Positions 17,862 to 40,658 of a stretch of 64,000 nucleotides of DNA are shown here, piece after piece; positions within the stretch are counted from its first letter, which is position 1; every line of letters begins with the position of its first letter. A program made the translations under genes and the position numbers. Origin of the DNA: Cytophagaceae bacterium. Lineage in GTDB: Bacteria; Bacteroidota; Bacteroidia; Cytophagales; UBA9547. Where the stretch lies: contig JAIYAU010000025.1 of NCBI GenBank assembly GCA_027488865.1, positions 1 through 64,000 of the forward strand, written 5' to 3'. The notes beneath the pieces are model-generated. The model had not been told where the DNA came from, made no database searches, and was given only the letters and a program-made list of their open reading frames with translations.

Positions 17862-18278
17862 ATGAACTGGGGATATAGTATTGTAATCGCATTTATATTG
17901 TTTGCTGCATTTTTAGCAGTAATTGTATCAAAGGCTATGAATGAGGATTTAGCCCTTACCTCCGCCGACTACTACCAACAAGAGTTGGAATATGGCAATA
18001 AGATGATACTCACCAAAAATTATCTAAACTTAAAAATCAAACCAACTGTGCAATACGATCAAGGCATAATCAAGATAAAATTTGGGCAAGCTATAGAAAA
18101 TGCGGTGATCTCATTTTACAAACCCAACAACAGTAAAGAAGATTTTAAAATAAGCACTAAAGATACCGTCGTTTTGGTTCCTTTTAGTTCTAAAAGCAAA
18201 GGACTTTGGAAGGTGAGACTGGACTACACCATAAATCAAACGAAAGTGTTTCAGGAGGAAGTTACTTTTATTGATTAG
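17862..18278 (+). CDS. ccoH: FixH/CcoH family protein
   Basis: A 138-residue protein with one N-terminal helix (SIVIAFILFAAFLAVIVSKA) and the ADYYQQELEYGNKM segment typical of FixH, then a beta-rich periplasmic domain. FixH/CcoH binds the cbb3 complex during assembly and is encoded after ccoG as here. Nine bases separate it from the next gene. Confidence 0.85.
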   Translation: MNWGYSIVIAFILFAAFLAVIVSKAMNEDLALTSADYYQQELEYGNKMILTKNYLNLKIKPTVQYDQGIIKIKFGQAIENAVISFYKPNNSKEDFKISTKDTVVLVPFSSKSKGLWKVRLDYTINQTKVFQEEVTFID

Positions 18279-18286
18279 ACGAGTTT

Positions 18287-18994
18287 ATGAATTTATGGCA
18301 ACTACTTTCTGATAATTTTTTACTACAAGGTTTATTCTTAGGCATATTAGGTGGAGTACATTGTGTATATATGTGCACGCCTTTGGTATTATTTATTACA
18401 AAGAAGGCAGGTAAATTATATGTGCTTACCTACCATGTGGGGCGAATATGGGCCTACTCTTTGCTTGGTATGTTAGCAGGTGCAATAGGCTTAATGGGCA
18501 CCCATTGGGCTACCTTTCACTACTTTAGCATAGCCATTGGCGCCGTTTTGATTATACATACACTGGGTATTATTAAAAAAATAGTTTGGTTTAAAGGGCC
18601 TTACAACTACCTTATACGATTAGCTGGAACTACTAAAAACGATTATTTCTTAAGATACTTCTTGGTAGGCACTGCCAACGGCTTTTTACCTTGTGGATTA
18701 TCCGCCACAGCCATAATAACGTCCTCAATTACTGTTAAGCCATTCACTGGCATTTTATTTATGTTGATGTTTGGGATCGGCACCACCTTGGTCTTGTTTG
18801 CCTCGCAGTGGATAACAAAAATAGTTTGGTTTCAAAAAATAAAAGTTAACACCAACTACGTCTCCATTTTAATAGGGCTATTTCTTATTGTAAGAGGTTT
18901 GCAACTAGGTATTCCATTGATAAGCCCCAAAGAACTCGACACCCAAAACCAGCATAGAGTAAAATTATGTACCACAGTGCCAAAATCTAAATAA
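18287..18994 (+). CDS. SafE/DsbD-like membrane protein (sulfite exporter TauE/SafE family)
   Basis: A 235-residue polytopic protein with about six helices. The first contains GILGGVHCVYMCTPLVL and a central one ANGFLPCGL, with paired Cys and Pro as in the UreH/DsbD_2 group of the TauE/SafE family. Members next to cbb3 genes are thought to take part in copper or reductant delivery for oxidase maturation, which fits this last position of the cco locus. Exact substrate is unknown. Confidence 0.8.
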   Translation: MNLWQLLSDNFLLQGLFLGILGGVHCVYMCTPLVLFITKKAGKLYVLTYHVGRIWAYSLLGMLAGAIGLMGTHWATFHYFSIAIGAVLIIHTLGIIKKIVWFKGPYNYLIRLAGTTKNDYFLRYFLVGTANGFLPCGLSATAIITSSITVKPFTGILFMLMFGIGTTLVLFASQWITKIVWFQKIKVNTNYVSILIGLFLIVRGLQLGIPLISPKELDTQNQHRVKLCTTVPKSK

Positions 18995-22670: not shown

Positions 22671-24683
22671 GTGGAATTTACTACGTTTATTAAGTTGTTT
22701 ATAGATTTACTTATGCTTGCAGTTATTTGGGTATTAATTTATTTGGGTATTTTGGCGTTTTTGCCGGGTCGATTTAAAAGATACTTTAGCTTTTTTATCG
22801 TTATCATCTGCTCGATGATGGGCGGATTCATTTCTTATAAAACAATCCACGACGGATACTATTATTTCCCTTTAGGAAATTTTGGTATTCTGGGAGAATT
22901 AGACCTTAAAGTAGATTTTTTATCCGCCATTTTTTTATTGATGATTAACCTCATCACCTTGTGTACTTCTTTGTATGCTGTAGGATTTTTAAAGAAATTT
23001 ACTGGCGACAATGTAGCACTTAATCTTCATCTCTTTGCGTTTAATTGCTTACACATAACCATGTTATTGCTGTGTATGGTCGATAATCTCCTCATTTTTA
23101 TCATCTTATGGGAAGTTATGTCTTTTGCTTCTTTTGTATTAATTATTTTTGATTTTGAGAAGGGTAAAAACCTAAAATCTGCCATAAATTATTTATTACA
23201 GATGCACATAGGCGTAGTTTTTTTAACTGTGGCACTTATAATATTAGAACAAAAAACAGGACACATCACCTTTAGTGGCTTAAAAGAGTATTTCGCTACT
23301 CAACCAAATTTTTGGATGTTTCTGCTATTTTTCTTAGGATTTGGCTTTAAAATGAGTTTTGTGCCATTACATACTTGGGCTGCCGAAAACTATTCTATTG
23401 CTCCACCTCATGCAGCAGCCCTCATGTCGGGTGTAATGAAAAAGCTTGGATTTTATGGACTAATACGCGTTTTGATGTCGATACAATCTGATTTCCAAAT
23501 CATTGGTATATTTTTATTGTTGATTGGCCTTTTGAGTGGACTTTATGGGATCATCAGTTCTATAATGCAAAAAGACCTTAAAAAAACGTTGGCTTACAGC
23601 AGTATTGAAAATGTTGGAATCATTTCTATTGGATTAGGAATGAGCTTTTTAGGATATGCAATTAAAGACTATGCCCTAGCATTTTTAGGTATGAGTGGAG
23701 CATTGTTACACATTTTTAACCATGCTTTGTTTAAATCTTTACTTTTTTTGTCAGCTGGTGATGTAGAATATTCGACTAGTACTACCAATATAAACGAACT
23801 TGGAGGATTGTTTAAAAAAATGCCCTACACCGGTGTTTTATTTTTGATTGGTTCATTATCAATATGCGGTCTTCCACCTTTTAATGGTTTTATTTCCGAA
23901 TTTTTATTGTACAATGGTATTTTTGAGGGCTTGAACGCGACTAACGTAATAGCTGAAGTTTTGCTTTTGGTAAGTTTGATAATTTTATCTCTTTTAGGTG
24001 GATTATCCATTTACAACTATACTAAAGCATTTGGACTTACTTTTTTAGGCACACCAAGAAGCAGCAAAGTAACTGACACTGGTGATGTACCATGGAAAAT
24101 GATTGCAGCACAAGCCATTATCGTAATTGTAATAATTTCAGTAGATTTATTTCCAGGAATATTTATTCAAGCAGTAAATAAAGTAATTACTGATTTTACC
24201 CATCAAGCACCTATTTTCAGTCAAAAGTCTTTTGATGCAGCCCAAAATCTTGGTTTTGTAAGTTTGGTATTTCTCGGTATTATACTCGCAGTATTTGGTT
24301 TGAGAACCTTGTTGACCTATAGAAATAAAAGTAGTTATGATGCCACTTGGGGTTGTGGATACGTGGGCACCGACACTAACATACAATACACTTCCAACTC
24401 TTATTCTGAATATTTTACAAAACTAGCAGAACCGATGGTAAGCATTAAAACTAATTACCATCCAATAGACCCCAATGATATATTTCCTCAAAATCGAAAT
24501 TACGAGGCTACTGCACATGATATAATCCAAAAAAAGTGGATTATCAAACCAGTAATCATTATGTATCAGATTATAAAACGCTTTGCTGTAATACAAACAG
24601 GACAAACTCAATATTATATACTATACGGTTTCTTGTTCATTATCATACTGTTTGTGCTTACTTTCTTAAATGTGATAAAATAA
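22671..24683 (+). CDS. Hydrogenase-4 subunit B-like (NuoL/Mrp-type ion pump subunit)
   Basis: A 670-residue membrane protein of the proton-conducting transporter family with about 16 helices, closest to HyfB/HycC. Residues of the ion channel are retained: E148 in ILWEVMSF, K227 in GFGFKMSF and H234 in PLHTWAAE. The C-terminal 130 residues follow a long loop, as in HyfB. Start is GTG. It is the first of six closely packed genes; the next starts on the base after its stop. The complex as a whole lacks hydrogenase centres, so the subunit probably serves ion translocation driven by something else. Confidence 0.85.
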   Translation: MEFTTFIKLFIDLLMLAVIWVLIYLGILAFLPGRFKRYFSFFIVIICSMMGGFISYKTIHDGYYYFPLGNFGILGELDLKVDFLSAIFLLMINLITLCTSLYAVGFLKKFTGDNVALNLHLFAFNCLHITMLLLCMVDNLLIFIILWEVMSFASFVLIIFDFEKGKNLKSAINYLLQMHIGVVFLTVALIILEQKTGHITFSGLKEYFATQPNFWMFLLFFLGFGFKMSFVPLHTWAAENYSIAPPHAAALMSGVMKKLGFYGLIRVLMSIQSDFQIIGIFLLLIGLLSGLYGIISSIMQKDLKKTLAYSSIENVGIISIGLGMSFLGYAIKDYALAFLGMSGALLHIFNHALFKSLLFLSAGDVEYSTSTTNINELGGLFKKMPYTGVLFLIGSLSICGLPPFNGFISEFLLYNGIFEGLNATNVIAEVLLLVSLIILSLLGGLSIYNYTKAFGLTFLGTPRSSKVTDTGDVPWKMIAAQAIIVIVIISVDLFPGIFIQAVNKVITDFTHQAPIFSQKSFDAAQNLGFVSLVFLGIILAVFGLRTLLTYRNKSSYDATWGCGYVGTDTNIQYTSNSYSEYFTKLAEPMVSIKTNYHPIDPNDIFPQNRNYEATAHDIIQKKWIIKPVIIMYQIIKRFAVIQTGQTQYYILYGFLFIIILFVLTFLNVIK

Positions 24684-25595
24684 ATGCTTAATATACTTTT
24701 AATCATTATTGCAAGTATTTTCTTTTTAGGTATTGTTAACCGAGTGCGAAGCACACTCAGCGGAAGAAAAGGCCCTGGCCTTGTTCAGAGTTGGTTAGAT
24801 ATTTACAGACTTACCAAAAAGCAAGCAATCTATAGCAAGGTGTCTAGTTTTATGTTTCAAATAGCACCTTCAATACAATTTGCATCTATCATTTGTGCCA
24901 TTTTAGTTGTACCTTTTGGCAACCATGAAGCTATTTTAGCTTTTGATGGCGATTTTATCTTTTTTGCATATGTATTGGCAGTTGGCAAATTTTTTATGAT
25001 TTGTGCAGCATTAGATACTGGAAGTCCGTTTGAAGGAATGGGTGCCAACCGCGAAGCTTTGTATAGCATGCTTGCAGAACCAGCATTTTTTGTTTTAATG
25101 GGTTCATTTGCCATGTTAACTGGGCATTTTTCTTTTCATGAGATTTTCAATAATATTCATTTTGGTTCTTTTGAATCATTTTTATTAGGAGGGCTAGCAA
25201 CTTATCTTCTTGTGCAAATTGCAATGGTAGAAAACAGTCGATTGCCAGTAGATGACCCTAAAACACACTTGGAGCTTACTATGGTGCATGAAGTTATGAT
25301 ACTAGATACAAGTGGGATAGATCTTGCCATGATAGCTACCGCCACCACTTTGAAATTTGCAATTTACGGTATGCTCATCACCAACTTCTTTCTAGACCCA
25401 ACTTGGAGCGAATGGCTAAAAATACCTATATTTTTTACCATTCAGGCAGGTTGGGCTATTACGGTAGCTTTGTTAGAATCTTTTAGGGCTAGGGCAAGAA
25501 TGAAAAGGAATCCACTGATAATCTTTTCGTTAACAGCGTTGTCTATACTAATTTTCTTTGGAGTGCTTATAATTATGAACAAGTTTATGTTATAA
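24684..25595 (+). CDS. Hydrogenase-4 subunit C-like (NuoH-type)
   Basis: A 303-residue membrane protein with about eight helices, homologous to HyfC/HycD and NuoH. Family segments include RSTLSGRKGPGLVQSW near the N-terminus, FEGMGANREALYSMLAEPAF and VDDPKTHLELTMVHEVM. NuoH-type subunits join the peripheral arm to the membrane arm and hold the acidic residues that start proton transfer; Glu residues in ALYSMLAEPA and LELTMVHEV are present. It starts directly after the stop of the preceding gene. Confidence 0.87.
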   Translation: MLNILLIIIASIFFLGIVNRVRSTLSGRKGPGLVQSWLDIYRLTKKQAIYSKVSSFMFQIAPSIQFASIICAILVVPFGNHEAILAFDGDFIFFAYVLAVGKFFMICAALDTGSPFEGMGANREALYSMLAEPAFFVLMGSFAMLTGHFSFHEIFNNIHFGSFESFLLGGLATYLLVQIAMVENSRLPVDDPKTHLELTMVHEVMILDTSGIDLAMIATATTLKFAIYGMLITNFFLDPTWSEWLKIPIFFTIQAGWAITVALLESFRARARMKRNPLIIFSLTALSILIFFGVLIIMNKFML

Positions 25596-25646
25596 ACTTG
25601 GTCTGTTGACTTATTAAATTCTGGTTTCTTATTTAGTAACAATAAA

Positions 25647-26276
25647 ATGATAAATTTATTTGCGGTAATCTTTACCATGACATTGATTTATCTTGCCTCA
25701 GGCAATAGATTGGTGACCTATATTCGTATACTTGCCTTACAAGGTTTGTTACTTTTTGGGCTTGCATATCTCGAACTTAAGCATATTAGTATTGGTAGTT
25801 TATTGTTTATTTTGGTTGAAACACTTGTATTTAAGGCATTTATCGTTCCTTATTTTTTATACATGCTCATTAAACGAAATCATTTTCATAACGAACGAGA
25901 CGCGGATAGTCCTAATTTCTTTTCGTTATTCAAGGTTTCACTCATTATCATTTTGTCCTTTATTTTATCTTATACACTCAATAACGAACATCTTAAAATA
26001 ACCTATTTCACTGCTTCTGTTTCTGCTATTCTAACTGGAATATTGCTCATAGTACGAAGAAAAAAAATTATCACGCATATTGTTGGTTATATGGTGTTTG
26101 AAAACGGTATCTTTTTATTGTCGTTGGCTATAGGCGGCGAACTTCCTATGATTGTAAACATTGGTGTACTCTTAGACCTCATCACCTGTCTACTATTGTT
26201 TGGGGTATTTGTGTCAAAAATTGGTGAAATTCACAAAACTGAAGAGCTTGACCAATTGTCAGAGTTAAAAGATTAA
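25647..26276 (+). CDS. Hydrogenase-4 subunit E-like (NuoK/MnhC-type)
   Basis: A 209-residue membrane protein with about six helices and a cytosolic loop at residues 75-90, corresponding to HyfE, whose two halves relate to NuoJ/NuoK. Conserved acidic positions in helices (E in FILVETLVFKAF, E in GYMVFENGIF) match those proposed for proton transfer in NuoK. It lies 51 bases after the NuoH-type gene and 24 before the next. Confidence 0.82.
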   Translation: MINLFAVIFTMTLIYLASGNRLVTYIRILALQGLLLFGLAYLELKHISIGSLLFILVETLVFKAFIVPYFLYMLIKRNHFHNERDADSPNFFSLFKVSLIIILSFILSYTLNNEHLKITYFTASVSAILTGILLIVRRKKIITHIVGYMVFENGIFLLSLAIGGELPMIVNIGVLLDLITCLLLFGVFVSKIGEIHKTEELDQLSELKD

Positions 26277-26300
26277 TCCATAAGTATTTAACAACATAAC

Positions 26301-27830
26301 ATGGACGTTATTTTAATATATTTTTTAGGTGCCGTTTTAATAAGCATAGCCATGTTTATTAACAAAAACACACTTATAGATCATTTGCTTTATATTCCGT
26401 TTGTGGTATTACAAGTCATGCTCAACTTAAATGCTGCCATTAGTTTAAATAAATATGAAGGAGGTAACCTTGTTCCATTCTTAAACCAAGAACCCTTTCA
26501 AACACTATCAAATTGGCTTTTCATAAATGAATTTGAAGGATATTATTTTAGAACTGATGGTATTGGACTCATTTTTCTCACAGTACTCACGCTTATAAGT
26601 ACCATTACAATTATCCACAGCATTATTTACTCTGTTAAAAAAGGAGATGCCATTCCTGAAATGGAAGTGTATAATGGATCATTAGTTTTACTTATTGCAA
26701 CCATGTCCGGAGTGCTGATTAGCAGACATATAGGTTTGATGTGGGCCTTTTTAGAAGCCACCACTTTGTGTTCTTCCATGCTTATTTACCATAACAGAGA
26801 TAAATCGGCACTTGAAGCGGCTTGGAAATATATATTTGTTTGTTCCATATCAGTATCAATGGCTTTTGTAGGAATTTTATTGTTAGGGATCGCCGCACAA
26901 GACACTGCAGAACTTGACCTAACTGTAGATGCTCTTATCAAAAATGCACCTCTCATGAAGCCCAGCTGGCTTATGATTACATTTCTCTTAGTTCTTACGG
27001 GTTATAGTGCCAAAATGGGCGTTTTACCATTATTCACAGTAGATATAGATGCCAAAGACGTTGCCCCGTCTTCCATTGGTGCACTTTTTTCAGGCGGACT
27101 CATGAATGTAGGTTTTGTGGCCATTTACAGATTTTACGAAATTTTTGCCAACACTTCAATTCATCATTGGATGAACTCCATTTTGGTAATCGTAGGGTTT
27201 GGCTCCATTTTTTTTGCTACAGTTTATATTATAAAAGTAAAAAACTACAAAAGAATGTTTGCCTATTCGAGTGTTGAACACGCAGGCCTCGCATTATTGG
27301 CTTTGGCTTCTGGCGGAATTGGTTATTTTGCTATGATACTTCATCTGATCATGCATTCTTTTACAAAAGCAAGTTTATTTTATCAAATGAGCCAAGTTTA
27401 CCGGGTTTTTCATGCTAAAAGTTATGATAAGGTTGGTGGCTATTTTAGGCTAAATCCTGCTGGAGGTATTATTATGATTTTGGGCCTTTTATGCGTAACA
27501 GCCATGCCTCCATCAGGACTTTTTGTAAGTGAATTAATGATTTTTAAGAGCCTATTTTATAATGGCAATCGCCTTTATTTATACGTGGCACTAGGCACTT
27601 TATTTTTACTTTGTTTTATTTTTTATGCCTTAGGGGCAAATATTTTAAAATTACTCTTTACACCTTTAAGTGAAGAAATGCACTCCTATGAAAAAGTAAG
27701 CCCTTGGGAATCAGCTACTCAATTTCTCCTTTTAGGTTTGGTGTTATATTTTGGCATTCATCCACCTCAAGAAATCACCGATTTTATCATGTACAGTGTT
27801 GAAAAACTTCCTCAATTGCCGACAAAATGA
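26301..27830 (+). CDS. Hydrogenase-4 subunit F-like (NuoN/NuoM-type)
   Basis: A 509-residue antiporter-like subunit with about 14 helices, closest to HyfF. Channel residues are kept: E152 in WAFLEATT and K238 in GYSAKMGVLPL. With the first gene of the operon this gives the complex two ion-translocating modules. Its stop overlaps the next start by four bases (ATGA), which couples membrane and peripheral subunits. Confidence 0.86.
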   Translation: MDVILIYFLGAVLISIAMFINKNTLIDHLLYIPFVVLQVMLNLNAAISLNKYEGGNLVPFLNQEPFQTLSNWLFINEFEGYYFRTDGIGLIFLTVLTLISTITIIHSIIYSVKKGDAIPEMEVYNGSLVLLIATMSGVLISRHIGLMWAFLEATTLCSSMLIYHNRDKSALEAAWKYIFVCSISVSMAFVGILLLGIAAQDTAELDLTVDALIKNAPLMKPSWLMITFLLVLTGYSAKMGVLPLFTVDIDAKDVAPSSIGALFSGGLMNVGFVAIYRFYEIFANTSIHHWMNSILVIVGFGSIFFATVYIIKVKNYKRMFAYSSVEHAGLALLALASGGIGYFAMILHLIMHSFTKASLFYQMSQVYRVFHAKSYDKVGGYFRLNPAGGIIMILGLLCVTAMPPSGLFVSELMIFKSLFYNGNRLYLYVALGTLFLLCFIFYALGANILKLLFTPLSEEMHSYEKVSPWESATQFLLLGLVLYFGIHPPQEITDFIMYSVEKLPQLPTK

Positions 27831-29347
27831 ATTGGATAGAACTACATAATAACGCTTCAGCACCCCTGCATGATATCCCTGTGCTTTCATATGAAAAATT
27901 CTGTGCATATGTAGCCGAGTTTCTTAACCAAAATGACAGTTGTCACTGTGTAAGTTATTACGCATTTCCATATAATAACGGCCTTAAGTTTATAGCTTGT
28001 ATTGCAGATGATAGTGATGGCATCATTTATATATTGTCTCACGAGCAGCCCAAATCAGTTACTAAATTGGCTTCGCTTTCTAAGGATATTTTTGAACTAC
28101 ATATTTTTGAGCGTGAAATCCATGAAAATTTCGGAATAGATTTTATTGGTCACCCTTGGTTAAAACCTGTTAGATACGCACACAATAGAGCTAACCTTGA
28201 AAATGAAATAAAAAATTATCCATTTTTTAAAATAACAGGTGAAGCATTACATCAAGTGGGTGTTGGCCCTATTCATGCAGGGGTAATAGAACCGGGTCAT
28301 TTTAGATTTATCTGTAATGGAGAGAATGTATTACACCTGGAAATACAACTCGGGTATCAACACAAAGGAATTGAAAGATTATTTTTAGAAAAATCTAAAT
28401 TAATTCAAAGAGCTATTTTAGCAGAATCCATTGCTGGCGATACTGTGGTAGGTCATTCATTGGCTTTTGCGCACAATATGGAACAACTTTTAGGTCTCTC
28501 AGAATCTAAACAGCTTGCAATAATACGTTCGATAGCTTTAGAATTGGAACGCATAGCGGTGCACATAGGAGATTTAAGTGCAATGTGTCTGGATGTGGCT
28601 TATCAACTAGGTAGTTCTGTTTTTGGCTCCTTGCGTACCCCAGTAATTAACTATTTTCAATGGTGGTGTGGCAATAGATTTGCAAGAACGCTCATTCGAC
28701 CGGGGTATAATCCATATCCACTTGAAAAAGAGTTAATTGAAAGATTAAAAAAAATGCTGGACGAATTTGAAATCAAATTTGATGAAATATCTAAAAAGAC
28801 GTTTACCCTGCCAAGTGTGTTGTCAAGATTTGAAAAAACAGGCCAAGTAACTGCCCAACAAATGAAACTCATTGGAGCCGTGGGCATACCTGCTAGGATA
28901 ACAGGAATAAGGAGAGATATTCGTACCTCGCATCCTTCCATGTACTATACCGAACTCAAATATCAACCAGTTATAATGGATTCTGGTGACGTTTATGCGC
29001 ACGGAAGACTAAAAAGCCATGAAATAAGCCGCTCTATTTCTTATATAAGACGACTTTTGGGTAAACTGGAAGAACTGGGGAAACAACAAGAACCTGACAG
29101 ACCGAACTACCCACAATTAAAACTAAAAAAGAATTATTTCTCAATAGATTTAGTAGAAGGCTGGCGAGGAGAAATTTGCCATACGGCCATTACTGACCAA
29201 GATGGTAATTTGATGCATTACAAGGTCAAAGATCCTTCAATGCACAACTGGCTAGGCTTGGCCCTTGCAGTAAGAAACAATGAAATATCAGATTTCCCCA
29301 TTTGCAATAAAAGTTTCGATTTGAGTTATTGTGGACATGATTTATAA
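27827..29347 (+). CDS. Hydrogenase-4 large-subunit-like (HyfG/NuoCD), no [NiFe] ligands
   Basis: A 506-residue fusion of a NuoC-like domain (1-125, with HIFEREIHENFGIDFIGHP) and a NuoD/HyfG-like domain (140-506, with VGPIHAGVIEPGHFRF). In true HyfG the active site is held by CGxC near the first motif and DPCxxC at the C-terminus. Here the positions read SIAGDTVVGHS (A203 and T206 in place of Cys, H210 kept) and FDLSYCGHDL at the end (S500 and G503 in place of Cys). No [NiFe] site can form. This matches the energy-converting hydrogenase-related (Ehr) class rather than a hydrogenase. Confidence 0.85.
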   Translation: MNWIELHNNASAPLHDIPVLSYEKFCAYVAEFLNQNDSCHCVSYYAFPYNNGLKFIACIADDSDGIIYILSHEQPKSVTKLASLSKDIFELHIFEREIHENFGIDFIGHPWLKPVRYAHNRANLENEIKNYPFFKITGEALHQVGVGPIHAGVIEPGHFRFICNGENVLHLEIQLGYQHKGIERLFLEKSKLIQRAILAESIAGDTVVGHSLAFAHNMEQLLGLSESKQLAIIRSIALELERIAVHIGDLSAMCLDVAYQLGSSVFGSLRTPVINYFQWWCGNRFARTLIRPGYNPYPLEKELIERLKKMLDEFEIKFDEISKKTFTLPSVLSRFEKTGQVTAQQMKLIGAVGIPARITGIRRDIRTSHPSMYYTELKYQPVIMDSGDVYAHGRLKSHEISRSISYIRRLLGKLEELGKQQEPDRPNYPQLKLKKNYFSIDLVEGWRGEICHTAITDQDGNLMHYKVKDPSMHNWLGLALAVRNNEISDFPICNKSFDLSYCGHDL

Positions 29348-29399
29348 ATTGATTATTAAAATTTTTAGGTTGATTTTGGGCCAAATGAAGTAACACCTT

Positions 29400-30173
29400 A
29401 TGTTCGAGACATTTAATATTCTTAAGCGCAACGGAAGTCAATTTATTCCTGACATCTCAAGCCCCACATTACCACCAATTTTTAGAGGAAGACCCATCAT
29501 TGAGGCCAAGCCTTGTGAAGAAAACTGCCGTGCATGTGAGGAAAACTGTCCAACTGATGCTATCACTAGAGAAAATCAAAATGTTTCGCTAGATCTGGGC
29601 AAATGCGTTTTTTGTGGAGATTGCCAATTATTGTGTCCAACTGACAAAATAAAATTTACAAACGATTATAAAATCGCCACCAATAAAAGAGAAAGTCTTA
29701 TTGTGCACGAAGGTGAAAACCATTCTATCGTTTTTGATCCTGATGATGTAAGAAACGAAATTCACTCCTTTTTTGGACAATCACTTAAGCTAAGACAAGT
29801 ATCGGCCGGTGGTGACAATGCTGATGAAAACGAGTTAAATGCCTGTATAAATGTAAATTTTGATATGGGGAGATTTGGCATTGACTGGGTGGCTTCACCT
29901 CGTCATGCCGATGGCATTGTTATAACTGGGCCTATTACCCAAAACATGGCAGAACCACTACAAATATGTTACGATGCTGTGCCCAATCCAAAAATCATCA
30001 TACTGGCAGGTACACACGCTATAAGTGGGGGGATTTTTGCTTCTAGTAGTGCATTAAATCGTTCATTTTTAGATAAATACAAAATAGATCTTTATGTACC
30101 AGGTTTTCCTCTACATCCATTAACTTTTATCAACGGAATACTAAATTTGATAAAAGCCAAAAGTAAAAGTTAA
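29400..30173 (+). CDS. Fused ferredoxin and NuoB-like small subunit (HyfH-HyfI), proximal cluster lost
   Basis: A 257-residue fusion. The N-terminal part carries two [4Fe-4S] motifs: C39-x3-C43-x2-C46-x3-C50-P (first spacing one residue longer than usual) and C69-x2-C72-x2-C75-x3-C79-P. The C-terminal part (about 112-257) is NuoB/HyfI-like (VASPRHADGIVITGPIT, NPKIIILAG), but the four proximal-cluster cysteines are replaced: GGDNAD (D139, D142), GTHAISGG (H206), PGFP (F236). The normal electron exit to the active site is thus absent while the ferredoxin part is intact. Follows the large subunit by 52 bases. Confidence 0.83.
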   Translation: MFETFNILKRNGSQFIPDISSPTLPPIFRGRPIIEAKPCEENCRACEENCPTDAITRENQNVSLDLGKCVFCGDCQLLCPTDKIKFTNDYKIATNKRESLIVHEGENHSIVFDPDDVRNEIHSFFGQSLKLRQVSAGGDNADENELNACINVNFDMGRFGIDWVASPRHADGIVITGPITQNMAEPLQICYDAVPNPKIIILAGTHAISGGIFASSSALNRSFLDKYKIDLYVPGFPLHPLTFINGILNLIKAKSKS

Positions 30174-30214
30174 ATTTTAGTCCAAATAGAATTGTCCTTT
30201 TGACCCATAGTTTT

Positions 30215-32452
30215 ATGAAACAAGAACCAAATTTAATGCAATTTCACACTCCAAAGGATTGGTTTCAAGGCCTTAAAGATCATTGGCGTTCCGATGCCAT
30301 TTCAGGGTTTTTAGTGTTCTTAATTGCTTTGCCACTTTGTTTAGGGATTTCCACCGCCAGTGGCTTCCCTCCTATTGCAGGTATTTACACAGCCATCATT
30401 GGCGGCATACTAGTAAGTTTTTTTAGTGGTTCTTTTCTAACTATTAAAGGGCCTGCCGCTGGGTTAATAGCTATAGCACTTGGTGCGGTTGAAGATCTTG
30501 GAAGAGGCAATAATTTGGTTGGTTATAAACTAGCCTTGGCCACAATTGTAGTGGCAGGTGTGCTACAAATCTTGTTTGGATTGTTTAAAGCAGGCACTTT
30601 AGCGGGCTTTTTTCCAGCTGCTGCTGTACATGGCCTGTTAGCTTCCATTGGCATTATTATTATTTCAAAACAAATTCATGTGCTTTTTGGAGTAAAACCT
30701 TCTGCAAAGGAGCCTTTGGAATTAATGGCTGAAATTCCACATACTATAGCGCATCTCAATCCATATGTGAGTATAATAGGCTTGCTAAGTTTATTCATTT
30801 TATTTTTATTACCACAATTAAAAAACAAATTTGTAAAACTCATTCCCGGGCCACTTGTCGTATTGTTTATAAGTATACCACTTGGATTAGCATTAAGCCT
30901 CAATCTGGACCATGACTATTTTCTTGGCAATAAATACCACATTAACCCCACGGCTCTTTTGGTCAATTTACCAGACAGCTTTTTAGCTGGTATCACTTTC
31001 CCCGATTTTAGTCAGGTTTTTTCATTCACATCCATTAAGTATATCATTATGTTTGCTTTGATTGGAAGCATTGAATCGCTTTTAAGTAGCAAAGCAGTTG
31101 ACGTCCTTGACCCCTTTAAACGTAAGTCTAACATGAATAAAGATTTATTTGCTGTAGGTATAGGCAACACCATAGCAGGTTTAATAGGAGGATTGCCGAT
31201 GATATCAGAAATTGTGCGATCTTCGGCCAATATTAATAATGGCGGCAAGACTAGATGGGCTAATTTTTTTCATGGCTTTTTCTTACTCACGTTCGTTGTG
31301 GCTGCAGCAGCAGTAATTAAGCTTATTCCTAATGCAGCCTTGGCAGCTATGCTGATTTTTACAGGATATAGACTTTCTTCTCCGAAAGAATTTATCAAAA
31401 CTTTTAAAATAGGCCCAGACCAATTTTTAATATTTGTTTCCACCATTGTGGTTACCTTGGCTACCGATCTTCTCATTGGAATTGCATTTGGGATTGGAGT
31501 TAAATTTTTACAGCATATTTTCTTTGGAGCCGATATAAAATCGATGTTCAAAATGAACACAAAAATCATAGAAATTGAACCTAATAACTATGAAATTAAA
31601 ATGCCCGACGAAGCTCTTTTCACTAATTTGTTGCAATTTGAAAAGCTTTTTGATAAAATTAATTCTAATGCCAATGTTATTTTGGACTTTTCCGAAACAG
31701 TAATGGTTGATCATACTTTTATGGAAGCACTACACAGCAGAGAAGATGAATTTCATAGGGCGGGTGGAAGTATCAACTACAAAAATATGGATCGACTTAC
31801 CTCCTATTCGGTTCACCCGCTTTCTTCAAGAAAATTATTAAATGATGGTATTTTTTCACCTACTAAAATTGTACTTACACCTAGGCAACAAGAAATACTC
31901 AAATACGCCAACGAAAATTCCTTTGAATTTGATTACCGAAAAACATCAAGTATTCTTAAATTCAGTTTTGCCCCATTTGTAATAGCCAGAAGAGCTAAAT
32001 TCGGGGAAAACATATTGATAGGCCAAGCTCCTTTTGGTAATTTTTTCTTTGCTGATATTTATGTGCAAGAAGGCGCTATGATGACCAAACAAGAGTATAA
32101 AATGACCATTTTATTTATATCAGATATCGAAGCTGTGAGAATACCCGACTTTACATTAGAAAAAGAGGGTGTTTTAGATGCTATTAAAGAATTTGGCGGC
32201 TATAAAGATATTGACTTTGCACAATACCCTTCTTTCTCAGATTACTATTACCTCACAGGTGCGGAGGAACATAAAATTAGGGAATTTTTCAAACCGAGCA
32301 TTATTGACTTGTTAACGAGCGAAAAGTCATATTTCATTGAAACTAACAATAATAGCATGCTCATACATAGAGAAATTGATATCTTAACTTTAGCTCAAAT
32401 GAAAGAAATGTTAACCTTCGCGAAAAAATTGATTGATACTACCGTCAAGTAG
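30215..32452 (+). CDS. SulP family anion transporter with STAS and extra C-terminal domain
   Basis: About 745 residues. Residues 1-440 are a SulP transporter (SDAISGFLVFLIALPLCLGI, SGFPPIAGIYTAII, TIKGPAAGLIAIALGA), which carries sulfate, bicarbonate or similar anions with H+ or Na+. A STAS-like segment follows (about 475-525, NVILDFSETVMVDHTFMEAL). The last 200 residues resemble a DUF3137-type fold (FSDYYYLTGAEEHKIREFF then IIDLLTSEKSYFIETNNNSM). I chose ATG 30215; an in-frame TTG lies at 30200. It begins 41 bases after the hydrogenase-4-like operon on the same strand, so joint expression is likely. Confidence 0.82.
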   Translation: MKQEPNLMQFHTPKDWFQGLKDHWRSDAISGFLVFLIALPLCLGISTASGFPPIAGIYTAIIGGILVSFFSGSFLTIKGPAAGLIAIALGAVEDLGRGNNLVGYKLALATIVVAGVLQILFGLFKAGTLAGFFPAAAVHGLLASIGIIIISKQIHVLFGVKPSAKEPLELMAEIPHTIAHLNPYVSIIGLLSLFILFLLPQLKNKFVKLIPGPLVVLFISIPLGLALSLNLDHDYFLGNKYHINPTALLVNLPDSFLAGITFPDFSQVFSFTSIKYIIMFALIGSIESLLSSKAVDVLDPFKRKSNMNKDLFAVGIGNTIAGLIGGLPMISEIVRSSANINNGGKTRWANFFHGFFLLTFVVAAAAVIKLIPNAALAAMLIFTGYRLSSPKEFIKTFKIGPDQFLIFVSTIVVTLATDLLIGIAFGIGVKFLQHIFFGADIKSMFKMNTKIIEIEPNNYEIKMPDEALFTNLLQFEKLFDKINSNANVILDFSETVMVDHTFMEALHSREDEFHRAGGSINYKNMDRLTSYSVHPLSSRKLLNDGIFSPTKIVLTPRQQEILKYANENSFEFDYRKTSSILKFSFAPFVIARRAKFGENILIGQAPFGNFFFADIYVQEGAMMTKQEYKMTILFISDIEAVRIPDFTLEKEGVLDAIKEFGGYKDIDFAQYPSFSDYYYLTGAEEHKIREFFKPSIIDLLTSEKSYFIETNNNSMLIHREIDILTLAQMKEMLTFAKKLIDTTVK

Positions 32453-36476: not shown

Positions 36477-39400
36477 ATGTTTTTGTTCAATTCAAAAAGT
36501 CTAAATACTGTGTTGATAATTTCTTGGTTAATAGTGCCAAGTTATCAACTTGCTTTTGGACAGCATCAAAATAAACATGCAAGTAATACTACTAAAAAAG
36601 CAAATACACGAAGAAATACCGATAAAACTTTTTCAGCCCATTTAGGTCCTGGTGTTGTTTTACTGCCTTTTAAAGAAAAAACGGACGGCTCTGGAAATTT
36701 AACAAATGTATTTTCTGGTTTTAAACTAGGTCTAGCAGCCAATGCTGGATTTTATTATAACCTCTCAAATCGATTTTCTATTGGTGCATCTTATAGCAAT
36801 TACATTTCAAGAAAACCCAATTATTCTTTAGCTTTTGCTGGCCCTAGTTTAGATTTTAAATATAACTTTGCTCCTCGAACTAGCCCATTTTCACCATATG
36901 TAGTAATGGGATTTAATTATGCCAATTTATTTTTAAAAAGATCTAGCTATAATAATAGTTTTCAAAATCAGGACACCACGGGTAGTGGTCCAGATATAAT
37001 TGTAAATAGAGTAACTACTAGTTTTGGTTCGTTATCAGCAGCCTTACCTTCATTTGGCCTCGCACCTGGTTTTGGACTTGAACTTAGGTTTAATAAACGC
37101 TGGGGAGGTTACGTACAATATACCTACAATTATAATTTTGTAAAAAATGACCCCATAATCGTTGAAAACTTTATAGCCAATGAGTCAAATTTAAGAGCCT
37201 CAGTAGTAACTGCTGGCGTTATTCTACATATTGGAGTTAATAAAGCGCAACAAAAACTTTATGTTGCGAAAAAATCTAGTAAATATAGTCACAAAAAAAC
37301 AGCATTCAAGTCAGCGAACAAACCACATAAGTCAGCTAAGATAAATAAACCTAATGAAGCTCGTAAAGGTACTTATACCAATACTGGATATTCCAATAAT
37401 AGTAAAAATAAGACTCCATCTTCACCGGTAGAAATGGTTCATGGTAAACAAAAGCTGACAACTCTGGAAAGTAACAAAATGATAAATAATCCGGTGGTAA
37501 CCGGAAAAATAGTTTCTGCTAACGGATCCTCAGCCAAAGACGTAGACGTATTGATATTAGACGACAATGGAAAAGTAGTTGGAACAAGCAAAACAGATAA
37601 AAATGGTTTTTTCGCTTTTAATAAATTAGATAAGAAAAACTATACTGTTGCCTTGGCCAATCCCAATCCTCAGCTTAAAGCCAATGTAGGTTATAGGGAA
37701 CAAGACCCGGATATGGCAATCTCCGCAGACCAAATGAAAAAGTTTGAGTATGCCAAACTTTCAAAATCGCAAAATAATACAATTGTAACAGGTAATATAA
37801 GCGTAAATGGATCCACAGGTACAGCTGATGACGTACCAATACTTATGCTAAACGACAAGGGAGAGGTAGTGGCTAGCTCTAGTACCAAAAATGGTAAATT
37901 TGCTTTTCAGAAGCTGCCTGCAGGAAACTATCAAGCAGTTATTGATAGCGATAATCCTAATCTTAAAGCAAATTTAAATCTTGCAGAACAAGATCCAGGA
38001 TTATTTATAACTACGGGAGATTTTAAAAAACACACATTAACAAAATTAGATTCTGACAAAAATACAAAAATAATTATTGGAAATGTGAGTCCTAAATCAG
38101 GTATAGACAATGTAGCAGATGTGGATATTTTGGCATTGAACGACAAAGGTGATGTTATAGGAACTACAAAAACTAATTCAAAAGGTGGATTTGCTTTTAA
38201 AAATTTACCTTCCAGTGATTACCAAATTGTTGTAGATTCTAAAAATCCTAATCTTAAAGCCAAAGTTGGAGTTGCCGAATTAGATCCAACACTAAAAATA
38301 GGTTCTGGCAAGTTTAATTATGGCAAATTGGCCGGTAATAATAATACTGTGGTAGGACAAGTAAGTCAACACATAAAAGCAGGCACAGTGGAAGGGGTAG
38401 ACGTTTTATTGCTCAATGACGAAGGAGAAGTTGTAAATTCCGTTAAACCTGATAAAACTGGTAAATTTGCTTTTACCAAACTGGATGGTGCTGATTATCA
38501 AATTGCATTGTCTGGAAACAATCCAAATCTAACAGCGACCCTTGAAGGCGCAAGTGATCCTTCTTTGGCATTTGGTCCAAATGATTTTAATAAATACAAC
38601 TATCAAAAACTATCTACTGACAACAAAAATAATGTTATCATTGGTACATTAACTTCGCCAACAGCAAGTGCTGAAAGTCTCAAAGATGTGGAGGTAATGT
38701 TATTAGACGAAAATGGTAATATTGTCAACACCACCAAATCAGATTCAAAAGGAAGGTTTTCATTCAAAGGGATGGCAAAATCCTCTTATCAAGTGGTAGT
38801 TGGCGACAATCATCCAGATTTAAAAGCAAACGCCTTCGTAGGAAACGCCGATCCAAAAAGTGCTGTAAGTGCTGCTGATTTTAAAAAATATGACTATCAA
38901 AAATTAAATCCTAATGCCAACAACAATATTATTTTAGGTAAAATTGACATGAGTGCAAATATTGGAAATCCTGAAGATATTGGATTTTTAATATTAGATG
39001 ACCAAGGCACTGTGGTGGAAGAAGTTTTTGCCTCAAAAACAGGATCATTTACTGTCAAAAATCTTAAACAAGGCAATTATCAGGTGGTGCCAAATTCTGA
39101 CAACCCAAATATAAAAACGACAGCATTTGTTGCAAATGGTGATCCTAATAACAAAATAACTGCTAAAGATTTTCATAAACACATGGCTGGTCTTAACAAA
39201 CTTGACAGAAATGAGTCGGCGAGTAATCTACTTACAGGTAAACTTTCAGTTAGTGATGGAAGTGAAAAAGTAGAAGATGTTGGTATTCTTTTACTAGATG
39301 AAAACGGAAAAGTTATAGCTGAAACCAAAACAAATGCCAATGGGAGATTTAATTTTAAAAGCTTGTCAAAAAGTAACTATCAAGTACTTGTGGATAATCC

Positions 39401-40658
39401 CAATCCAAAATTGTCTGCGAAACTAACGGCCGTAGAGGATGATTCCAGAATGAAACTGGTAACAGATGACTTCAAAAAATACGATTATCAAAAACTTGAC
39501 AACGCTAGCAACAACAATATAGTGCTAGGTCGGATAGAACCTACTGCTTACATGAATAATGTAGGAGACGTACCTGTGATGTTATTAGATGATGCTGGTA
39601 ATGTTACAGAAGTAAAAACAGACAAAAAGGGATATTTTGCCTTTACTAAATTGGCAAGCAAAAATTACCAAGTAATTATTGATAGCAAACATCCTGACGT
39701 TAAACCAAACTTTTCGGTAGCCAATGCCGACCCTGAAATGTACATTACTTCAGAAGAAATGGCAGCTCATAATAGTTCATCTATTTTAGGAACCTTAGAA
39801 AGTAAGAATTCAGAATCACTTTCTAATTATCAAGTACTTTTATTGAATGATAAAGGAGAAATAAAGGGAGAAACTACTACAAACAAAGATGGCCATTTTA
39901 CATTTAAAAAACTTAACAAAAGTGGATATCAAGTAATTCTTAATTCTAAAAATCCTGAGATTTCATCGACAGTAACACCAATCGACGAAGACCCTGATCT
40001 TAAAATAAAAAAAGGAGATGTGGTAAAATACAATCCTGCAACCAAACAATATCAACCTCTTACTGGAACTGATAAAATACGTGTAACAGGTATTGTAAAT
40101 AATACAGATGGTAAAAATAGTGGTGTTGTTTTTCTATTGAATGGACAAGGAGAAATACTGGCTAAAACAACGACTAATGAAAACGGAAGTTTCTCATTCG
40201 GCAAAATACATGGAGATGCCAATGTACAAGTAGTATTTCAAAACTCAGAACAGAAGGTGAATGCAAAATTTCAACTTTTTGAAGATAAAGAAAGCTTTGA
40301 TGCTCCTAAAAACAAGCCTAGCAAAATATATAACTCTGTGTATTTTGAACAAAACCAAATAGATGTAAGCGATAATGATAAACTTGATTTGGATAAATTT
40401 GTTGATTATTTAAAAGCCAATCCTAAAGCAAAAATTAATGTTAATGGTTATGGAGATAATACAGGTAACAATGACTCTAATATAAATGCTACCGAAAAGC
40501 GAGCTGAAGCGGTGGTGAAGTATTTGCAATCCAGAGGAATACATAAAGAACGTCTTAAAACTAACGCAATGGGTAAGGCTTTACAATTCAAAAACAAGTA
40601 TAATCAACAAGATCCTAAACTAAATAGAAAGGTGGATCTTGAAATAATTGAAGAATAA
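36477..40658 (+). CDS. Large OmpA-family protein with about ten internal repeats
   Basis: A 1393-residue exported protein. After a signal peptide (cleavage near AFGQ), residues about 50-255 look like an outer-membrane beta-barrel (LGPGVVLLPF, SIGASYSNYI, GFGLELRFNKRWGGYVQYTY). A basic linker leads to about ten repeats of 80-95 residues (about 345-1265), each with a core like DVDVLILDDNGKVVGTSKT, F.FKKL, YQV and NPNLKA, resembling carboxypeptidase-regulatory-like domains. The C-terminal 120 residues are OmpA-like (VYFEQNQIDVS, NGYGDNTGNNDSN, TEKRAEAVVKYL) and should bind peptidoglycan. Probably a long periplasm-spanning or cell-envelope linker. Confidence 0.85.
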   Translation: MFLFNSKSLNTVLIISWLIVPSYQLAFGQHQNKHASNTTKKANTRRNTDKTFSAHLGPGVVLLPFKEKTDGSGNLTNVFSGFKLGLAANAGFYYNLSNRFSIGASYSNYISRKPNYSLAFAGPSLDFKYNFAPRTSPFSPYVVMGFNYANLFLKRSSYNNSFQNQDTTGSGPDIIVNRVTTSFGSLSAALPSFGLAPGFGLELRFNKRWGGYVQYTYNYNFVKNDPIIVENFIANESNLRASVVTAGVILHIGVNKAQQKLYVAKKSSKYSHKKTAFKSANKPHKSAKINKPNEARKGTYTNTGYSNNSKNKTPSSPVEMVHGKQKLTTLESNKMINNPVVTGKIVSANGSSAKDVDVLILDDNGKVVGTSKTDKNGFFAFNKLDKKNYTVALANPNPQLKANVGYREQDPDMAISADQMKKFEYAKLSKSQNNTIVTGNISVNGSTGTADDVPILMLNDKGEVVASSSTKNGKFAFQKLPAGNYQAVIDSDNPNLKANLNLAEQDPGLFITTGDFKKHTLTKLDSDKNTKIIIGNVSPKSGIDNVADVDILALNDKGDVIGTTKTNSKGGFAFKNLPSSDYQIVVDSKNPNLKAKVGVAELDPTLKIGSGKFNYGKLAGNNNTVVGQVSQHIKAGTVEGVDVLLLNDEGEVVNSVKPDKTGKFAFTKLDGADYQIALSGNNPNLTATLEGASDPSLAFGPNDFNKYNYQKLSTDNKNNVIIGTLTSPTASAESLKDVEVMLLDENGNIVNTTKSDSKGRFSFKGMAKSSYQVVVGDNHPDLKANAFVGNADPKSAVSAADFKKYDYQKLNPNANNNIILGKIDMSANIGNPEDIGFLILDDQGTVVEEVFASKTGSFTVKNLKQGNYQVVPNSDNPNIKTTAFVANGDPNNKITAKDFHKHMAGLNKLDRNESASNLLTGKLSVSDGSEKVEDVGILLLDENGKVIAETKTNANGRFNFKSLSKSNYQVLVDNPNPKLSAKLTAVEDDSRMKLVTDDFKKYDYQKLDNASNNNIVLGRIEPTAYMNNVGDVPVMLLDDAGNVTEVKTDKKGYFAFTKLASKNYQVIIDSKHPDVKPNFSVANADPEMYITSEEMAAHNSSSILGTLESKNSESLSNYQVLLLNDKGEIKGETTTNKDGHFTFKKLNKSGYQVILNSKNPEISSTVTPIDEDPDLKIKKGDVVKYNPATKQYQPLTGTDKIRVTGIVNNTDGKNSGVVFLLNGQGEILAKTTTNENGSFSFGKIHGDANVQVVFQNSEQKVNAKFQLFEDKESFDAPKNKPSKIYNSVYFEQNQIDVSDNDKLDLDKFVDYLKANPKAKINVNGYGDNTGNNDSNINATEKRAEAVVKYLQSRGIHKERLKTNAMGKALQFKNKYNQQDPKLNRKVDLEIIEE

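Follow-up and report, generated by a model that had tools for sequence, protein, structure and literature searches.

In several Bacteroidota lineages, a hydrogenase-4-like (Hyf-like) complex is reasonably likely to serve a SulP anion carrier as its energy-coupled partner, in the slot of DabAB. We describe this system from the window, a 64,000-nucleotide stretch of a Cytophagaceae genome, together with related loci. A whole clade of these complexes has lost the ligands for electron delivery to the active-site region, yet its proton paths are frozen. Energy-converting hydrogenase-related (Ehr) complexes have for years been listed without a known function and mostly been assumed still to be redox machines. 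If our reading is correct, the architecture of complex I and hydrogenases would have been turned to a new use, as an uptake machine driven by ions and not by redox chemistry. This would bear on how complex I membrane arms are coupled to distant chemistry and would add a candidate system for inorganic carbon in bacteria that are not known to be autotrophic.

An intact membrane arm beside vacated redox sites

The operon comprises six hyf-like genes followed by SulP (Table 1). Open reading frames and Pfam/NCBIfam families agree on the HyfB-C-E-F-G-(H/I) set and SulP on one strand, as in the original prediction, and the predicted spacing of 41 bases holds with the SulP start at ATG 30215. No terminator-like site was found in this gap. 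In the mechanical ORF list, SulP begins at TTG 30200 instead. Matches to the NCBIfam hydrogenase 4 models for subunit B (HyfB, 455 bits), subunit F (HyfF, 216 bits) and the membrane subunit (HyfE, 60 bits) fall under the curated cut-offs, and HyfC has a Pfam match to NADHdh (1.1e-30).

Table 1. Features of the hyf-SulP locus, given in window positions
Feature	Positions	Strand	Details or basis
HyfB-like antiporter subunit	22671..24683	+	670 aa, GTG start; Pfam/NCBIfam
HyfC-like (NuoH-like) membrane subunit	24684..25595	+	303 aa; acidic chain kept
HyfE-like (NuoK-like) membrane subunit	25647..26276	+	209 aa
HyfF-like antiporter subunit	26301..27830	+	509 aa
HyfG-like large subunit, 30-kDa and 49-kDa domains	27827..29347	+	506 aa, without [NiFe] ligands
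First NiFe cysteine pair site, now A203 and T206	28433..28444	+	alignment to HycE 7z0s
Second NiFe cysteine pair site, now S500 and G503	29324..29335	+	alignment to HycE 7z0s
HyfH/HyfI fusion, ferredoxin domain and NuoB-like small subunit	29400..30173	+	257 aa
Eight ferredoxin-domain cysteines (39, 43, 46, 50, 69, 72, 75, 79)	29514..29636	+	HyfHI sequence
Proximal-cluster ligands 1 and 2 replaced, D139 and D142	29814..29825	+	alignment to HycG, MbhJ
Proximal-cluster ligand 3 replaced, H206	30015..30017	+	alignment to HycG, MbhJ
Proximal-cluster ligand 4 replaced, F236	30105..30107	+	alignment to HycG, MbhJ
Gap between HyfHI and SulP, 41 bases	30174..30214	+	ORF positions
SulP carrier	30215..32452	+	745 aa from ATG 30215

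HyfB and HyfF are NuoL/M-like (PF00361) with the key Lys and Glu residues present: E148, K227, K258 and K355 are kept along the proton path of HyfB, and E152, K238 and K356 along that of HyfF, at whose TM8 position 38 of the 39 members of the window's group have N269. Among relatives without the proximal cluster, the charged residues of HyfB, HyfF and HyfC are essentially invariant, which is consistent with the functional membrane arm that had been predicted.

The redox side of the complex presents the opposite picture, and both predicted losses were recovered by alignment to solved structures. The solved chain closest to HyfG is HycE of the Escherichia coli FHL (7z0s), and each of its four [NiFe] cysteines is replaced in the window. 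None of the HyfG relatives scored has all four, each carrying Cys at one position at most. The predicted fold of HyfHI (pLDDT 77) matches HycG, MbhJ and NuoB, with MbhJ first and HycG second among its solved relatives. Judged by alignment to HycG (7z0s) and MbhJ (6cfw), all four cysteines of the proximal cluster are likewise replaced in the window. Scoring of 89 HyfHI sequences showed the loss to be fixed in 45 of them, with the state of the proximal site changing twice on the tree, and a Bacteroidota-dominated clade shows D/C/D/N as a recurring replacement at the cysteine positions. Ligand losses common to dozens of relatives are therefore neither sequencing errors nor chance, and in the clade the loss is, on the sequences compared, ancient.

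Because all eight cysteines of its N-terminal ferredoxin domain are present, forming two intact ligand sets, HyfHI of the window probably still binds two [4Fe-4S] clusters. As read from the ligands, the complex lacks the last cluster and the active site but not every redox cofactor, and the electron path to the catalytic site looks broken. A residual redox enzyme, in which the ferredoxin-domain clusters would serve an unknown HyfG/HyfHI site and drive Mbx/MBS-like ion pumping with SulP in a linked pathway, would fit the two sets retained in the window and the ligand set 50/69/72/75, which is kept in 45/45 relatives lacking the proximal cluster; other Ehr complexes have also been proposed to be redox-driven (PMC6349859). 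However, most of these 45 members have lost the other ferredoxin-domain cluster and are left with a single isolated one, the proximal cluster is absent from all of them and no NiFe site remains anywhere, and we regard such an enzyme as very improbable.

The Ehr label of the original prediction suits the complex, as its Hyf/Mbh-type subunits are homologous to group 4 hydrogenases and lack NiFe ligands, in line with the definition in use (PMC6349859, PMC4378227). Lacking both the NiFe cysteines and the proximal cluster, it falls outside the group 4 [NiFe] hydrogenases (Hyd-4/FHL). The Ehr complexes of Sulfobacillus (PMC4378227) and Margulisbacteria (PMC6349859), whose function is listed as unknown, share the Hyf/FHL-like subunit set and a large subunit without [NiFe] ligands, whereas the window's clade lacks the proximal cluster, usually has one ferredoxin cluster fewer, carries the D/C/D/N replacement and, in some members, bears a SulP-porin extension of the operon. 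Compared with hydrogenase-4/FHL of E. coli, the homology and order of HyfB/C/E/F/G/H/I are the same, but the window is without the NiFe site, the proximal cluster and a formate dehydrogenase gene, and H and I are fused.

SulP linkage and its alternation between hyf and DabAB

Across the approximately 107 loci fetched, 14, drawn from several Bacteroidota lineages, have SulP next to or within the hyf operon, and three more have it close to HyfHI; the linkage changes state seven times on the HyfG tree. The genes can be tightly packed, with gaps of −4 (locus L166), 0 (L168) and 3 bp (L153) and overlaps in some loci. Since four linked relatives (L035 and L166 to L168) retain the proximal cluster, SulP linkage is not tied to redox death. 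A SulP gene after the Hyf operon was rejected for locus L034 (genome G009), where the contig stops 387 bp downstream with no more plus-strand ORF.

Most relatives of the complex among the fetched loci, including sister genera and a 22-row, largely Bacteroidales clade, have no adjacent SulP, and the Bacteroidales half of the clade is without one as well. This SulP is missing altogether from five genomes of the family to which the window belongs, and adjacency as a trait of that family was rejected, with none in loci L150, L151, L152, L154 and L161. The adjacency is thus not confined to this genome, the outcome that would have counted against the original prediction, but it is not strictly conserved. 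Since sister genera and the Bacteroidales half have no adjacent copy and some family genomes have none at all, SulP is no obligatory subunit of the Hyf complex, and with most relatives lacking an adjacent SulP, the complex must therefore have a role without it.

These members without SulP, together with the at least two HyfB copies seen in 16 loci, would suit an Mrp-like exchanger of Na+ or K+ for H+ that serves pH or ion homeostasis, as would intact antiporter-like subunits next to lost redox sites; SulP would then be co-regulated because bicarbonate or sulfate balances charge and pH, with no direct coupling. We consider an exchanger of this kind rather unlikely, as it would leave the conserved HyfG and HyfHI without a role and would not explain why the same SulP, with or without its porin, alternates between the Hyf complex and DabAB. 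A second HyfB copy and SulP did not behave as alternatives to each other (1/11 versus 15/57; Fisher p 0.44).

The alternation is seen from both sides. The SulP subfamily of the hyf operons flanks DabAB in 9/11 close DabA loci, often with the same porin; three cases with SulP and the porin beside DabAB are L046, L221 and L222, contig 28 of the present genome included. In 296 genomes, 12 subfamily members reach 500 bits or more; eight of these adjoin DabAB, two hyf and two neither. On one tree, SulPs linked to DabAB intermingle with those linked to hyf, in clades that mix both partners, and a single clade of the DabAB-linked ones is rejected (AU p 3.5e-65). The window's operon is without DabA (PF10070), and the one close DabA of the genome is encoded on contig 28. 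Mutual exclusion of DabA and Hyf within genomes was also considered and proved uninformative (overlap 1, approximately 0.6 expected). A literature search found no prior description of Hyf/Ehr-SulP or DabA-SulP linkage; a DUF2309 gene in Leptospirillum has been read as related to chromate or oxidative stress (PMC9080137).

Seven hyf-SulP operons also encode the porin, a protein of approximately 445 aa that is encoded after SulP in six of them and within the operon in the seventh, and whose predicted structure matches OprP/OprO and other porins of the outer membrane. The window's operon has no porin gene; the porin is encoded elsewhere in this genome.

The transported anion and the proposed coupling

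As the SulP and porin of hyf operons also sit with DabAB, a role in the uptake of an anion, probably bicarbonate, is suggested. By this analogy, the complex most probably takes the place of DabAB and supports bicarbonate/anion uptake as a partner driven by the proton-motive force. An Ehr-type complex derived from hydrogenase-4 would have given up electron transfer to a catalytic site and retained its proton-translocating arm. The OprP-like porin would let the anion, most likely bicarbonate, pass the outer membrane and SulP would carry it across the inner one, with the Hyf-like complex drawing on the proton-motive force via HyfB, HyfF and HyfC to drive or trap the uptake. Bicarbonate as the substrate, use of the proton-motive force, the direction of coupling and direct SulP-Hyf contact are steps that we infer. 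The ion-coupled anion uptake originally put forward is partly supported, and the DabAB analogy offered with it gains independent support from the interchange of partners; strict or universal SulP-hyf linkage is not supported.

The carrier itself is a clear member of Sulfate_transp (PF00916; 212.6 bits against a curated cut-off of 23.2). BicA (6ki1) is its best solved relative, and E287 occupies the position of the BicA Asp and the SLC26Dg Glu. Against the BicA equivalog NF050096 it scores 154 bits with a cut-off of 880, which makes it a homolog and not a member, and the DauA and generic sulP models of NCBIfam outscore BicA, all under their cut-offs. These scores, the diverse substrates of the SulP family and a porin with matches to both phosphate-type OprP/OprO and general porins would agree with boosted uptake of sulfate or another anion (molybdate or dicarboxylate), driven by the proton-motive force and unrelated to inorganic carbon. 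We judge this unlikely, given that BicA is the best solved homolog and that the neighbors of the subfamily are inorganic-carbon genes, namely, DabAB as above and, in 5/5 cases of the nearest other SulP clade, a beta-carbonic anhydrase. In comparison with BicA and the SulP-beta-carbonic anhydrase pairs, the partner here is a large complex I-like assembly and not a soluble enzyme, and Glu takes the place of Asp at position 287.

Neither beta- nor alpha-carbonic anhydrase has a match in this genome, a lack that needs no Hyf explanation since DabAB is also present. Replacement of a missing beta-carbonic anhydrase by Hyf showed no clear association across the phylum, the enzyme being encoded in 7/12 Hyf genomes and 168/296 overall. 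In Acidithiobacillus caldus, the portion of the report considered here places a hyf cluster (hyfBCEFG) beside a beta-carbonic anhydrase gene, interprets it as an H2-evolving hydrogenase and suggests a role in CO2/pH homeostasis (PMC3826726); the position next to an inorganic-carbon gene is alike, and that portion includes no SulP or porin link.

DabAB/MpsAB resembles the window's system in its NuoL/M-type antiporter-like proton subunits and in its SulP-subfamily and porin neighbors, but the complex described here has no DabA, six Hyf-type subunits instead of two and no known carbonic-anhydrase-like site. We can propose with considerable reserve that it represents a third, complex I-like kind of energy-coupled inorganic-carbon pump, in the strongest form of which the vacated HyfG cavity would have become a CO2-hydration site in place of DabA. 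Conserved HyfG residues that lie near the vacated active site in sequence are H150, H158, C163, D205, H210 and C281.

A hydrogenase-4-derived operon without NiFe ligands

Seven genes on a single strand make up the operon, assigned by Pfam and NCBIfam to HyfB, HyfC, HyfE, HyfF, HyfG (30-kDa and 49-kDa domains), a fused HyfH/HyfI (HyfHI) and a SulP carrier. With the preferred SulP start, 41 bases separate HyfHI from SulP, and no terminator-like site was found in this gap. The operon is preceded by ~470 bases of AT-rich DNA and then a UbiA gene, and followed by an alpha-amylase-type gene, both on the opposite strand.

Positions of the features discussed (window, unless a contig is named)
Feature	Position	Remark
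hyf-SulP operon	22671-32452	
SulP start	30215	ATG
Conserved HyfG residues	28274-28669	H150, H158, C163, D205, H210, C281; possible new metal site
Repeat protein	36477-40658	1393 aa
ORFs resembling FixH and a TauE/SafE-type protein	17862-18994	judged by eye
SulP - porin - DabA - DabB	contig 28, 209-8243	locus L046; the genome's one porin copy

The NiFe cysteine positions of HyfG are occupied by A203, T206, S500, and G503 (aligned to E. coli formate hydrogenlyase HycE, 7z0s), and the proximal-cluster cysteine positions of HyfHI by D139, D142, H206, and F236 (aligned to HycG and MbhJ). The original prediction of a redox-dead Hyf-like complex with SulP 41 bases on is thus confirmed in gene content, gap, and ligand losses. 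Since the ferredoxin domain of HyfHI retains eight cysteines, the complex should still contain clusters; judging from the residues present, the path from these clusters to any active site appears cut. HyfHI as a decayed gene was ruled out, as its predicted model is reasonably well folded (pLDDT 77), with HycG, MbhJ, and NuoB still found as matches to the small-subunit part. In HyfG, six conserved Cys, His, and Asp residues lie beside the vacated NiFe motifs and form a candidate metal site; two of them, C163 and C281, have no Cys at the matching HycE positions.

By membership the complex belongs to the energy-converting hydrogenase-related (Ehr) complexes, which lack NiFe ligands and are usually thought to be redox driven, with an unproven role (PMC6349859, PMC4378227), and it is not a hydrogenase. 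Nor is it a DAB complex by membership, though its action may resemble that of one component of such a system.

Conservation of ion path and loss of electron path

Relatives were gathered by whole-genome searches and one scan of genome contigs, and ligand sites were scored in ~107 loci. None keeps all four NiFe cysteines, with Cys at one position at most. The proximal cysteines are kept in 44 of 89 HyfHI sequences and not kept in 45; among the latter, Cys139 is replaced by Asp in 43, Cys206 by Asp in 40, and Cys236 by Asn in 40. All 45 have the ferredoxin ligand set 50/69/72/75 and most lack the set 39/43/46/79, for both of which we infer the cluster assignment from the usual 2[4Fe-4S] pattern. 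The charged proton-path residues (HyfB E148, K227, K258, and K355; HyfF E152, K238, and K356; seven HyfC acids) vary little or not at all in either proximal-state group. On the HyfG tree the proximal-cluster state changes twice, and proximal-lost rows fall within one 57-row clade, almost entirely Bacteroidota, that includes four proximal-kept rows of one family. By sequence, the redox-site loss is old and patterned, selection having kept the ion machinery and discarded the electron path.

In clades keeping the proximal cluster, a helix-turn-helix and PTS EIIA-like regulator lies directly 5' of hyfB (L036-L042, L089, L097, L099, L108, L113, and other loci). At least two HyfB-type genes occur in L040-L042, L052, L055, L056, L060, L061, L064-L066, L068, L071, L077, L081, and L127, usually as adjacent copies within the operon, which brings the antiporter-like subunits to three; the second such gene of L127 is part of another copy of the operon.

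A carrier-porin module shared with DabAB

SulP lies directly 3' of HyfHI in the window and nine other loci (L035, L054, L058, L077, L153, L158, L166-L168), and it comes after HyfHI on a short contig of genome G408; it lies 5' of the operon in L164, L038, and L039, and between HyfG and HyfHI in L044. In G367 and G407, where hyf genes are scattered, it is ~1 and 4.7 kb from HyfHI, respectively. The HyfHI and SulP genes share 4 bp in L166, abut in L168, and leave a 3-bp gap in L153. About 0.2 SulP neighbors would be expected in 66 loci, using rough SulP-per-genome figures and with kinship of the loci making an exact p-value meaningless. L038 and L044 have SulPs of a different kind, with STAS (and, in L044, a PTS EIIA domain), which group with that of L039 apart from other hyf-linked SulPs; the association therefore has more than one origin. 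Linkage changes seven times on the HyfG tree by parsimony. SulP adjacency recurs but is not universal: it is absent from the Bacteroidales half of the clade and from the window's sister genera (L150, L151, L152, L154, L161), and SulP of the window's kind is absent from five genomes of its family.

Seven SulP-carrying operons (L035, L054, L077, L158, L166-L168) encode, after SulP or internally, a ~445-aa protein without a Pfam match. Its all-beta model (pLDDT only 68) matches outer-membrane porins (Foldseek probability 1.00), among them OprP and OprO, which are phosphate porins, and malate-bound Omp32. Distant relatives adjoin MFS or SSF transporters, as expected for pairs of porin and inner-membrane carrier, which suggests a general family of such pairings in Bacteroidota; in L182, L184, L190, and L196 the partners are MFS sugar porters or an SSF symporter.

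The same module stands beside DabAB, in the window's own genome and as DabA - DabB - SulP - porin in G289 and G076. A third SulP of the window's genome stands alone on contig 41 (L047). Close DabA occurs in 11 of 296 Bacteroidota genomes, with SulP within a few genes in nine (fragments only in L254). At >=500 bits, the SulP subfamily has 12 members in the 296 genomes: 8 by DabAB, 2 by hyf, and 2 by neither. Hyf-linked and DabAB-linked members interleave on the SulP tree; one starred clade holds three DabAB-linked and four hyf-linked members (L035, L166-L168), another L054 and L164 (hyf) with L249 and L250 (DabAB), and a single DabAB-linked clade is rejected (AU p 3.5e-65). Members of a neighboring clade adjoin beta-carbonic anhydrase in 5/5 cases, by gene coordinates. 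In the open literature, which excludes most subscription papers, we found no description of Hyf-SulP or SulP-porin-DabAB modules.

A possible role in anion uptake

DabAB, an established inorganic-carbon system linked to the PMF, has a membrane subunit similar to the antiporter subunits of complex I (PMC13144422); MpsAB is another inorganic-carbon uptake complex (PMC6689103). The Hyf-like complex repeatedly takes the place of DabAB beside the carrier-porin module, which suggests comparable jobs for the two. The predicted DabAB-like coupling to anion uptake is partly supported and is strengthened by this interchange, with its mechanism inferred. The complex probably aids the import of bicarbonate or a similar anion by means of proton flow via HyfB, HyfF, and HyfC; it may do so by contact with SulP, by its own CO2 conversion, or just by keeping up the ion gradient or pH required by SulP. 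Among solved structures, the window SulP is closest to BicA (6ki1; entry name, low affinity sulfate transporter). Position 287 is an invariant Glu in the subfamily, as in SLC26Dg, and Asp in BicA. A published account gives SLC26Dg as a symporter of fumarate and protons (PMC6656431), and our guess from this likeness is that SulP may be proton rather than sodium coupled.

Searches for the beta and alpha classes of carbonic anhydrase gave no match in the window's genome (99.98% complete). DabA is present in all three same-order sample genomes that lack the beta class (G000, the window's own, G076, and G146; Fisher p 0.045 in a small sample). The absence of both classes agrees with a demand for imported bicarbonate, although the genome's own DabAB alone could meet it. 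An earlier paper took a hyfBCEFG cluster beside beta-carbonic anhydrase in Acidithiobacillus caldus to be an enzyme that evolves H2 and helps in CO2/pH homeostasis (PMC3826726).

Elsewhere in the window, the repeat protein carries many similar repeats and, by eye, an apparent C-terminal OmpA-type domain, and the FixH-like and TauE/SafE-type ORFs suggest that a cbb3 oxidase assembly cluster ends there.
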